Shown piece by piece: positions 7,428-36,873 of a stretch of 44,991 nucleotides of DNA. How positions within the stretch are numbered: the stretch's first letter is position 1; the number at the start of each line of letters is the position of its first letter. Both the position numbers and the translations under genes were made by a program. The notes beneath the pieces were generated by a model, which had not been told where the DNA came from, searched no databases, and worked only from the letters and a program-made list of their open reading frames with translations. Source of the stretch: Chlorobiaceae bacterium (lineage in GTDB: Bacteria > Bacteroidota > Chlorobiia > Chlorobiales > Chlorobiaceae); contig JAAXXL010000016.1 of NCBI GenBank assembly GCA_013334485.1, positions 1-44,991 of the forward strand, written 5' to 3'.

Positions 7428-7673
7428 TTAGTCCGTAAGCGAATCTTCTGCTTCGAACCAGTCATGGTGATGAGAACCATCCTGACGACCTTTTTGTTCC
7501 CATCGATAGTATGCCGCCAGTCTTATCTGCTCTTCACGTTGCTCATTTGTGAGCTTTGCTGTGGGTTTTTTGCTCTTTTTTACAGAGGCCGGCGAAGATG
7601 CCTTTGCTGCGCTTGCAGTTTTTTTTGCAGGGGCTTTTTCAGCTACCTCTTTTTCAGCGATTTTTTTTGCCAT
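7428..7673 (-). CDS. DUF2934-domain protein with Lys/Ala-rich N-terminus
   Basis: This is an 81-residue protein. Its first half is low-complexity and very basic and Ala-rich ([18 protein letters not shown]), like histone-H1-type tails. Its second half carries the DUF2934 signature: an [17 protein letters not shown] stretch, then [12 protein letters not shown]2934 proteins are small and widespread, and their function is not established; the basic tail suggests nucleic-acid contact, which is inference. The start ATG at 7673 is the first in frame. It is followed by a strong hairpin terminator. Confidence 0.8.
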
Positions 7674-7919
7674 TGTTTCAGAGTCTATTGTTTATCCGGT
7701 TTTTGTAAACTCATCGTTAAAAGGTCGCTTCCTGCTGTGCGCTCAAGTTGCGCCGGAACCGGTTCAGCCTCAACACGCTTGCTGCTATGCCTGACTCCGT
7801 GACAAAAAACAGAAAACGTCTTTAATAGCTAAAGATAAAAAAATAATCCTGTCAGAGAATCGGCCCCGAAGAGTTTTTTTTACGGGCACTTCGATTAATT
7901 TACTCTGCACCTCATTATT

Positions 7920-33963: not shown

Positions 33964-34446
33964 ATGAGCAGTATTGAAGAGAAAATCATCAAATCGGGTT
34001 ATTTGCTTCCTCAGTTGCCGGCTGTTGCAGGGCTATATTCCCCTGCGATCAGAAGCGGAAATCTTGTTTTTACCTCAGGGCAACTACCTCTTCTTGATGG
34101 CAAATTGATAGAGCCCGGAGGAAAAGGAAAGGTCAATGAACAGGGCAGGGAGGATGCTTTCAATGCCTCAAGGGCAGCCCTTCTCAATGCTCTTGCTGCC
34201 ATCAAATCAGTGACAGGTACTCTTGAGAGCATTGAACGGATTGTTAAACTTACACTCTATGTTGCCAGCGATTCAGGCTTTTCCAGTCAGCATCTTGTTG
34301 CCAATGGAGCCTCTTCTCTTCTTCTTGAAATCTTCGAAGAGAGGGGAGTTCATACAAGAAGTGCTGTTGGCGTTGCGGAATTACCTCTTGACGCAAGCCT
34401 TGAAATTGAACTCATTGTTCAGTGTGATTTCAGTAAACACTCTTAG
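33964..34446 (+). CDS. RidA/YjgF-family enamine/imine deaminase
   Basis: RidA proteins hydrolyse reactive 2-aminoacrylate and related enamines released by PLP enzymes, protecting metabolism. This 160-residue protein has [22 protein letters not shown] near the N-terminus (residues 18-39), [13 protein letters not shown] near 41, and the Asn/Ala-rich [20 protein letters not shown] near 73-92. The conserved Arg near 131 is in [20 protein letters not shown], which binds the carboxylate. The slightly long form (about 150-160 residues) is the Rid subgroup with an extended loop. The family is sure, the exact substrate is not. It ends with a strong terminator. Confidence 0.9.
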
Positions 34447-34497
34447 TATAAAAGAGAAGTAAATACTACACCGCATACGTAATAAGAAATAGATAAT

Positions 34498-34547
34498 GGC
34501 CATAAGTATTGATAGAAAATATCAGTATTTATGGCCTTTTTTGTTTT
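34498..34547 (+). terminator. Rho-independent terminator of the RidA gene
   Basis: GGCCATAAGTATTGAT (34498-34513) pairs with ATCAGTATTTATGGCC (34521-34536), using two G-U pairs, around a seven-base loop. A T-run follows (34537-34542, then more T). It lies about 50 bp beyond the stop. Confidence 0.9.
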
Positions 34548-35217
34548 TATAAAAGCAAACTACTACGAGTTCAAAAAATTCATAAAATTTCAAAATAAAT
34601 ACATGATAAAAATGGTAAAAAGCAATTTTAATACTGATAGCACATCTTTTTTTGTGATAAAAAAAGATTTTTTATCACAAATAGTTTTTTTGTAAAACAA
34701 GTAAAAATTAGTTTTGGTTAAATAGCCTAATTTATTTAAATAAAAGAGATTAGATTTATTTATATGAAAATATTTTTATGTTATAATGTGTTATCATAAT
34801 TTGCCTGTGCTTTTGATTATTTATCTACTTTTTTTCTTTTGTTTCTGATATTTTTAAGCAATTTTTTTTGATTTTACCTTTTTGTTGAGTTTTGATCTAA
34901 CTCTTTTTATTATTTGATTTTCTGGTTTTTTTATTGTGTAGTGATCTGATTTTTATTGAGATTTATTTCTGTAAGAGTGGTTTATTCTTTCGTTTATGCA
35001 TCAATTTATTTTTTTTGATTTCTGCTGGCTGTTATTGTTTGGTTTGTTTTTGTTTTTATGCATAATATTCCGAACTCTTTTTTTGGTTGTTTACGCGGGA
35101 TTATGAGTCATTCGGGCCCCTGTATATTGTTTTTTTGTGATTTTGGTCTGTGATAGGTAAACTGTAATTCATCGAGCTGATACGAGTTCCCTTATCCTGT
35201 AATTAACCTTCCCTTTC
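34548..35217. other. AT-rich, T-skewed gene-free region before the S41 protease
   Basis: No credible ORF is found in these 670 bp. The first part (to about 34800) is AT-rich and A/T-balanced. From about 34801 to 35040 the plus strand is strongly T-rich: by hand I count 144 T, 38 A and 58 G+C in 240 bases. Flanking genes are near half GC. A TATAAT hexamer at 34782 might be a -10 element, but no -35 partner is obvious. The region could be a long 5' leader, a noncoding RNA locus or decayed DNA. I cannot decide among these. Confidence 0.6.
34651..34681. repeat. Perfect 14-bp AT-rich inverted repeat, 3-nt loop
   Basis: TTTGTGATAAAAAA (34651-34664) is the exact reverse complement of TTTTTTATCACAAA (34668-34681), with AGA between them. 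Either strand carries a run of six T within the stem. It follows the RidA terminator by about 100 bp and could be a second terminator, a protein-binding site or an RNA element. It is a direct observation with no assigned function. Confidence 0.75.
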
Positions 35218-36873
35218 ATGTCCCGCATACTGACTATTGTATTCATGCTTGTTGTGCTCGGATTTGGATTTTTTCTCGGATCCAGACTTAACGGGAGAAG
35301 TGAAGTGCAGGGTGAACAGCAGAAAAAAATGCAGGAAGCTTACGGTTTGATGAAAGCTTTGTATGTTGATGATGTTAATGCCGATAGTCTCGCGGGTGCT
35401 GGTATTCAGGGTATGGCGGAATATCTTGATCCGCATACTGTCTATCTGGAGCCGGAAAAGGTCAGCTATTCCCAGGCTGAATTTGATGGTAATTTTGATG
35501 GTATCGGTATTGAGTTTGATATAACCAGCGATACGCTTCTCGTTGTTACCCCGCTCTCCGGTGGTCCGAGTGTGGCCGTCGGAATTCTGCCCGGTGACCG
35601 TATTATTGCCATTGATTCTGTTTCTGCTGTTGGCATTACTGAAAAACAGGTGTTGAAGAAGCTCAGGGGGAGGCAGGGAACTGCCGTTAAATTGAGGGTG
35701 TTCAGGCCTTTAAGTGGAAAAATTATTGATTTTACCGTTACACGTGGTCGAATATCCACATCAAGCATTGATGCGGGCTTTATGCTTGACCGCAGGGTCG
35801 GGTATATTCGAATAAGCCGTTTTATTGCAACCACAGCCGATGAGTTTCGAACTGCTCTTGCCCGACTGAAAAAGCAGGGCATGAAACGTCTCGTTATTGA
35901 TCTGAGAGGTAATCCCGGCGGTTTTCTTGAGCAGGCGGTTGCCGTGGCTGATGAGTTTCTTGCAAAAGGAAAGTTGATTGTCTATACCAAAAGTCGCAAT
36001 GGAGGTGTGGAGAGTGAGCGATTCATTGCCCGCTCTGGCGACAGTTATGAGAGTGGAGAGGTTGTTGTGCTTGTCGATAAAGGTAGCGCATCTGCTTCTG
36101 AAATTCTGGCCGGTGCTCTTCAGGATAACCGGAGGGCGGTTGTTGTTGGAGAACAGACCTTTGGAAAAGGGCTGGTGCAGCGGCAGCTTCAGTTTGCAGA
36201 TGGCTCGGCAATACGGCTAACCGTTTCAAGATATTACACACCTTCGGGCCGCCAGATTCAGCGGGTTTATCACAAAGGAGGCATGGGTCGTGAAAGCTAT
36301 TTTCAGGATGCCCTTACAACCATTCAGCCTGAGAAACTCTTTACCAATCCTGACAGTTTATTGTATCTGAAAAACAGTGAGATTTCGGTTTACAATACTT
36401 CATCGCTCTCACGATTGGTCTCTCTGCCTGCAGGAAAAGTAACGAAAGAGAGTAATCAGCTTCAGGCGTTGAGAAATGCCGGTGGTATTATTCCGGATTT
36501 CTGGGTTACCGGAAAAGGTTACTCTGATTTTTATCAGGAACTGTTCCGCTCAGGTTCTTTTGATGATATTGCACTGAAAATTATTGATGATCCTCGCAGC
36601 TCGGTTCAACGATACCGTAGCTCTCTGGAAACGTTTATTTCGGATTATTCCGCGGAGAGTCAGTTTGAGTTGCTGGTTATAAAAACCTGCAAGAGTAAAA
36701 AAATTCGTTTTGACAGAACGGCTTTTCTTCGTGATAGACTCAAGCTTGCTCATGCTGTTAAATCAAGGATTGCTCGTCAGCTCTTTGGCGGAGCAGGTCA
36801 GATCATGTTTGTTGTGCGCAGTGCAGATCCGGTTGTCAGGATGGCGACCTCTCTTCCTCTGAGTCAACCCTGA
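35218..36873 (+). CDS. C-terminal processing peptidase, S41 family (Ctp/Prc)
   Basis: This 551-residue periplasmic serine protease has an N-terminal membrane anchor (about residues 5-22, TIVFMLVVLGFGFFLGS) and a PDZ domain near 80-165 (FDGIGIEFDITSD, GILPGDRIIAIDSV). The catalytic domain carries RGNPGGFLEQAVAVADEFL near 228. The catalytic Ser is in GSASASEILAGAL near 287 and the general-base Lys in EQTFGKGLVQ near 312. Such proteases trim the C-termini of exported proteins. A further 180 residues beyond the core form a C-terminal domain of unknown fold. Its 5' flank is the T-rich 771-bp gap. Two START-like genes follow. Confidence 0.92.
   Translation: MSRILTIVFMLVVLGFGFFLGSRLNGRSEVQGEQQKKMQEAYGLMKALYVDDVNADSLAGAGIQGMAEYLDPHTVYLEPEKVSYSQAEFDGNFDGIGIEFDITSDTLLVVTPLSGGPSVAVGILPGDRIIAIDSVSAVGITEKQVLKKLRGRQGTAVKLRVFRPLSGKIIDFTVTRGRISTSSIDAGFMLDRRVGYIRISRFIATTADEFRTALARLKKQGMKRLVIDLRGNPGGFLEQAVAVADEFLAKGKLIVYTKSRNGGVESERFIARSGDSYESGEVVVLVDKGSASASEILAGALQDNRRAVVVGEQTFGKGLVQRQLQFADGSAIRLTVSRYYTPSGRQIQRVYHKGGMGRESYFQDALTTIQPEKLFTNPDSLLYLKNSEISVYNTSSLSRLVSLPAGKVTKESNQLQALRNAGGIIPDFWVTGKGYSDFYQELFRSGSFDDIALKIIDDPRSSVQRYRSSLETFISDYSAESQFELLVIKTCKSKKIRFDRTAFLRDRLKLAHAVKSRIARQLFGGAGQIMFVVRSADPVVRMATSLPLSQP

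Follow-up and report, generated by a model that had tools for sequence, protein, structure and literature searches.

A conserved dyad-symmetric element and a one-sided T/G-rich arm in the ridA-ctp gap of Chlorobiaceae

The ridA-ctp Gap and Its Neighbors

The window, a stretch of 44,991 nucleotides, belongs to a 2.59-Mb Chlorobium genome (G000) that lies near Chlorobium ferrooxidans, to whose ctp its own is 86% identical. A gap of 771 bp (34447-35217; A223 C83 G112 T353) separates a ridA-like gene from ctp, which encodes a C-terminal processing peptidase of the S41 type (Table 1). The longest open reading frames within it are 54 and 43 aa, and the list of open reading frames leaves the gap uncovered, as an initial annotation of this DNA had said of its T-rich stretch. 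The terminator that the same annotation placed behind RidA, on the left side of the gap, was also located, with its 17-pair stem and T tail. In 15 of 55 gaps, the first 150 nt after the ridA stop contain perfect inverted-repeat arms of at least 10 bp. Missed in that annotation were the dyad-symmetric element at 34682-34798, the promoter-like block at 35130-35163, and the fact that the layout as a whole is conserved.

Table 1. Features of the ridA-ctp locus (positions in the window)
Feature	Position	Strand	Remarks
ridA-like gene (YjgF/RidA)	33964..34446	+	Pfam PF14588/PF01042; left neighbor in 55/55 gaps
ridA intrinsic terminator	34498..34546	+	17-pair stem (34498-34536) and T tail
Perfect 14-bp inverted repeat	34651..34681		lineage-specific; the hairpin of the initial annotation
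Dyad-symmetric, AT-phased element	34682..34798		center 34740, ±58 bp
Left flanking palindrome	34702..34715		TAAAN6TTTA type in the profile; center -31.5; local dyad r=0.88
Central palindrome	34728..34752		25 bp; TAANNNNTTNNAWTNNAANNNNTTA
Right flanking palindrome	34765..34778		center +31.5; local dyad r=0.90
T/G-rich, A-poor arm	34780..35125	+	indel-poor, substitution-rich, non-coding
Conserved promoter-like block of ctp	35130..35163	+	TTGTGA (35135-35140), 17 nt, TAAACT (35158-35163)
ctp, C-terminal processing peptidase S41	35218..36873	+	PF03572, TIGR00225

Loci containing ctp were drawn from 80 named contigs and from whole-genome searches. They yielded 55 distinct readable gaps, 44 from one locus set and 11 from a second; 18 of 62 distinct loci in the first set and 12 of 50 in the second were left out, the contig or stretch having ended before ridA. 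The sample consists mostly of drafts or MAGs, and its sequences are related by descent. From the ridA stop to the ctp start the gap measures 570-980 bp, mostly 770-800, in all 55 Chlorobiaceae gaps, and the short ordinary spacer that random insertion or drift would have left in related strains was not found. The suggestion of an acquired remnant is likewise unsupported, since the gap is present at every readable locus of the family. No ridA match was found within the sequence stretch around any of 28 ctp loci from outside the Chlorobiaceae. In at least six Chlorobium assemblies (G008, G023, G026, G029, G034, and G036) ridA and ctp lie on separate contigs, each near a contig end. Breaks in assembly tend to fall within this gap, with homopolymers, low coverage, or variation between strains as the probable cause.

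Between the arm and ctp, the TTGTGA-N17-TAAACT block is among the best-conserved columns of the gap. Its hexamers were picked by eye and score below the cut of the promoter scan, and no clear copy was seen by eye in two gaps (L030 and L031). Given the conservation and placement of the block, transcription of ctp probably starts here rather than upstream of the arm. A U-rich leader of the S41 protease gene, raised in the initial annotation, was rejected as first choice on this ground and is unsupported.

A Dyad-Symmetric Element of 117 bp

A motif search over the 55 gaps, each taken without its last 150 bp, returned one strong motif (26.9 bits, versus 8.8 and 8.4 in two shuffled sets). When all 55 gaps are aligned on this motif, about 117 bp are conserved position by position and without gaps, and the fixed positions hold only A or T. 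The sequence model of the element matched both strands at one place in most genomes with a match, and it was by this that the dyad symmetry was recognized. Compared with its own reverse complement, the profile correlates at r=0.916 about position 34740; none of the 16 other shifts tried exceeds 0.543. This symmetry is not imposed by the model. The correlation is 0.91 among the 43 Chlorobium gaps and 0.80 among the 12 Chlorobaculum-type gaps. A model built from the Chlorobium gaps only finds the site in all 12 held-out Chlorobaculum-type gaps, each time above 200 block shuffles.

The three strongest local dyads lie at 0, +31.5, and -31.5 bp (r of 0.92, 0.90, and 0.88, respectively), that is, three helical turns apart. 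Because the central site is odd-centered (TAAN4TTN2AWTN2AAN4TTA) and the flanking sites are even-centered (TAAAN6TTTA), the three subsites are not copies of one operator. In single sequences, mirror positions are complementary in a fraction of 0.82 at conserved positions versus 0.39 at the rest, and a consensus fold over the element contains 0 predicted pairs; together these observations point to readout of the DNA, not a hairpin, as what the symmetry reflects. The element lies roughly 295 bp past ridA and roughly 480 bp ahead of ctp. A literature search, with subscription papers outside its scope, found no description of the 117-bp element.

The T/G-Rich Arm

The base composition is biased on one side of the dyad only. 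Positions 34801-35040 contain T144, A38, G35, and C23, and the earlier hand count of about 144 T to 38 A is exact. No 240-bp stretch elsewhere in the 45-kb window is as T-biased as the one in this gap (T-A=111 for the best placement, at 34820; next 71). The same locus again ranks first in 796 kb of the sister genome G015 and in 400 kb of the complete Chlorobaculum-type genome G080. The second most T-biased stretch of the window is at 7491-7730. On the ctp side T exceeds A in all 55 gaps. Alignment across relatives, proposed earlier as a check on both T bias and hairpin, thus upholds the first as a family trait and assigns the second to a single lineage. Left of the element T and A are balanced, with a T-A skew near 0, and from about +40 bp from the dyad center to the ctp promoter region the skew is 0.25-0.49 and G exceeds C. 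Since the left spacer, on the same strand, lacks T bias, plain AT-richness and leading-strand drift were both rejected, and the earlier statement that the asymmetry goes beyond AT-richness is borne out.

A coding remnant was rejected as well. The longest open frames of the arm are no longer than in shuffled sequence (medians of 57 versus 58 on the plus strand and 51 versus 55 on the minus strand), and substitutions are spread roughly evenly over codon positions, with no clear pattern, in most of the five pairs compared. The arm might instead encode its own non-coding RNA, U/G-rich and about 350 nt long, running from the dyad to before the ctp promoter, with the dyad as its regulated promoter. 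The onset of the bias about 40 bp from the center and its end near the ctp promoter would suit such a transcript, as would the keeping of length without sequence, and in the window a TTTATA-N17-TATAAT sequence starts 19 bp from the dyad center. This form is not conserved, however; promoter-like matches are not above chance (4 found versus 4.9 expected), the predicted fold of the arm is no more stable than that of shuffled sequence (z=-0.25), an Rfam search of the window gave no match, and a terminator scan found none at the end of the arm. We regard such an RNA as improbable. With no pairs over the dyad element, the same results lend no support to a structured RNA of any kind; they also make the earlier suggestion of a small-RNA locus less likely, and folding, as proposed earlier, brought out no consensus structure over the element.

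Inverted Repeats and Divergence of the Gap

The perfect 14-bp inverted repeat reported in the initial annotation is real: recomputed, it reads TTTGTGATAAAAAA / AGA / TTTTTTATCACAAA. It has no aligned counterpart in the two nearest relatives (L004/L005). In the interval from 150 nt past ridA up to the dyad element, 5 of 48 gaps contain perfect arms of at least 12 bp, versus 0 of 48 when block-shuffled. Lineage-specific perfect inverted repeats with arms of 14-20 bp lie 88-189 bp left of the dyad in the window and in gaps L011, L042, L017, and L083. Template switching could have made them.

Divergence was compared in 38 pairs with a four-fold ctp divergence of at most 0.40. In 37 of these close pairs divergence is higher in the gap core than at four-fold sites, by a ratio of up to 2.7, the exception being L011/L042 (gap 0.08 versus four-fold 0.10). 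Indel events number only 1-13 per pair over 335-743 aligned positions; the arm keeps its length and base bias and does not keep its sequence. For G007 and G015 the alignment of the gap has one gap column and a difference of 0.26, versus 0.090 in other non-coding and 0.046 in coding sequence, and the gap is the most diverged run in about 90 kb of alignment. The gap is a hot spot of divergence.

The same two genomes also differ around ogg, in a diverged block of about 2.7 kb. Because this block includes coding sequence, allele exchange fits it as well as hypermutation does. There (L427 4750-7500 versus L428), ogg and the next gene differ mostly at 0.1-0.5 per 100 bp, and the start of the neighboring secA differs by at most 4%. 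The arm might then be a mutational or recombinational by-product, a spacer free of constraint, subject to frequent substitution or allele exchange and to a leading-strand T/G bias, that happens to adjoin an unrelated small operator. The excess over four-fold sites in nearly all close pairs, the ogg block of the kind that allele exchange gives, and the match of T over A and G over C in the arm to the leading strand are all as this account would have them. It sits poorly, however, with the unbiased spacer on the same strand left of the dyad, with a length kept across the family, and with the close pair L011/L042 that has no excess, and we think it unlikely.

A Second Site Upstream of ogg

When a 121-bp matrix was run on the available G080 sequence, it found one further site, at 947224, scoring 13.2; the highest score in random DNA (2 Mb, 20% GC) was 9.7. 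This site is upstream of ogg (PF07934). A shorter form of the element, 57-59 bp before the ogg start, is the best match in 22 of 27 scanned loci (30 were fetched, 3 of them too short). The ogg profile was built from 24 sites, one of the 27 being truncated and two having no site near the start; its central TAA, TT, AA, and TA positions are nearly invariant, and T exceeds A on the side facing away from ogg in 23 of the 24. In the window's own genome the ogg site scores 19.9 and lies about 60 bp before the gene. Convincing sites were found at only two loci per genome in the sequence scanned, which is few for a global regulator.

Other exact 25-bp palindromes, at lpxC-pgsA/recJ, at dnaA, and elsewhere, score much lower than the two main sites when the full 121 bp are compared and were taken for chance or weak matches; the dnaA match in L335 overlaps what we take to be DnaA boxes. 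First-pass matches in G041, in very AT-rich DNA, were set aside. Among Chlorobiales outside the Chlorobiaceae (L375-L385), 11 mutY loci have upstream sequence, and in 10 of them the best core match lies at most 90 bp from the gene start, only 4 of the 10 scoring above 10; none of five Chlorobiaceae mutY loci has a core site. Taken together with ogg, the mutY matches hint at a link to 8-oxoguanine repair.

Position on the Chromosome

The GC-skew switch lies between ridA-ctp and ogg in all five complete genomes, about 36-130 kb from them, and the arm sides of both loci face it. The element at ogg was detected in four of the five, the ogg of G083 not having been fetched. The gene order is shared by descent, so that five genomes are not five tests and the flanking is weak evidence. 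The distances look near-symmetric in G080 and are unequal in G083, for which reason exact symmetry about the terminus was dropped and only flanking is claimed. A replication origin was rejected, the GC skew keeping its sign across the gap.

A terminus-region replication site would consist of two oppositely oriented units, one per replichore, each a dyad followed by a T/G arm toward the terminus. Such units would pause or organize forks, and pausing would leave strand-biased substitutions, palindromes, and few indels. The placement of both loci around the skew switch with arms facing it, the standing of the gap as the most diverged run in one strain pair, and the long perfect inverted repeats that are absent from shuffled gaps agree with this picture. 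Set against them are the common descent of the gene order, a skew switch that is flat over tens of kb with the unequal distances of G083, and a dyad that alone is not polar. We give the proposal little credence.

Known terminus systems offer partial parallels. In the fork traps Tus-Ter and RTP, units of opposite orientation stand to either side of the terminus. The two loci described here may resemble them in this, given the flanking in five genomes of shared synteny, but their sites are dyad-symmetric, one per replichore. The dif/XerCD site is a terminus-linked palindrome predicted in 11 of 11 Chlorobi genomes, 28 bp long and at the skew shift (PMC3025954). The element resembles dif as a terminus-linked palindromic site, but it is 117 bp long and tens of kb away from the shift.

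A Candidate Site for an Oligomeric Protein

We consider it moderately probable that the gap holds a large cis-acting site wrapped by an oligomeric DNA-binding protein, with a regulatory copy at ogg and an attached arm. A symmetric site of 117 bp, with palindromes on one face of the helix and without RNA structure, is best read in this way. The DNA-binding-protein target suggested in the initial annotation is supported in kind by the dyad element. From the sequence we infer both binding and wrapping: a dimer-based, oligomerizing protein would recognize the central 25-bp palindrome and one palindrome 31.5 bp to each side, and would wrap about 115 bp into one symmetric nucleoprotein complex. The shorter site copy upstream of ogg, an 8-oxoguanine repair gene, would probably serve to control it. 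At ridA-ctp the distance of about 480 bp is too great for simple occlusion of the ctp promoter, and the complex is more likely to be an architectural or long-range site. One guess is that it keeps the arm strand often single-stranded, or the DNA of the arm specially arranged. An operator model has against it that the site is far from both neighboring promoters and that the T/G arm finds no explanation within it.

Lrp-type regulators offer a parallel to such a protein. The centers of their binding sites are two or three helical turns apart, and in the case of Ss-LrpB some 100 bp of DNA are wrapped around three dimers (PMC2995911). The operators of Lrp/AsnC (FFRP) proteins such as Ss-LrpB and BarR are AT-rich palindromes at whole-turn spacing (two or three), total near 100 bp, and have their DNA wrapped on an oligomer (PMC2995911, PMC10201364); the element matches them in palindromes, spacing, and size. 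Exactly one gene of the Lrp/AsnC family (PF01037) was found in each of 15 Chlorobiales genomes searched, and this single conserved protein is a tentative, rather doubtful candidate for the binder. It has 174 aa, and in G000 its gene is located around C80:9622-9837. Lrp proteins are often autoregulated, but no convincing site was found before the lrp gene in any of 6 loci (best core score -4.6). The element further differs from these operators in that center and flanks are of different parity and form, in that the whole is dyad-symmetric over 117 bp, and in its place between a 3' end and a distant promoter. Because of the parity of the subsites and the lrp gene without a site, the element is not filed as an Lrp operator.

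A ribbon-helix-helix-like protein encoded beside metK was dropped as a candidate binder, being present in 12 of 131 genomes and absent from that of the window. In the metK neighborhood of Chlorobaculum-type loci (L313 and L324) this small protein has a 25-bp palindrome 34 bp before its start. Its C-terminal ribbon-helix-helix-like segment was assigned by eye, and no Pfam family reached the cut-off.

Two further systems bear comparison. The strong gyrase site of phage Mu is single-copy and symmetric, with phased preferences over more than 100 bp, and the element is similarly symmetric and phased over more than 100 bp. Because of the 4-bp stagger of its cut, a gyrase site has an even center, in contrast to the element, which is centered on base pair 34740 and is pure A/T there. 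Titration loci of the datA type are conserved gene-free spacers that carry a high-affinity protein array, and the element also lies within a conserved gene-free spacer.

Implications for the Chlorobiaceae

If the element is bound by protein as proposed, it would readily open a large architectural site to study, in a phylum whose gene regulation is little known. If it is linked to replication, it would represent a terminus system distinct from those known to us. There is a slim chance that the Chlorobiaceae possess paired, replichore-specific near-terminus sites, each with a 117-bp dyad core and a T/G arm facing the terminus, that handle forks or strand exchange. Were this true, the substitution rate near the site would be far above that of the genome while length and strand bias are held, and the pair would constitute a type of chromosomal element new to bacteria, its position tied through ogg to 8-oxoguanine repair. 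The arm, with its saturated sequence, near-fixed length, and strand bias, is a test bed for strand-biased mutation or for selection on composition. For the family as a whole, a non-coding site is found in every readable ridA-ctp gap that is almost unalignable by ordinary means, and that the usual conservation scans would miss.
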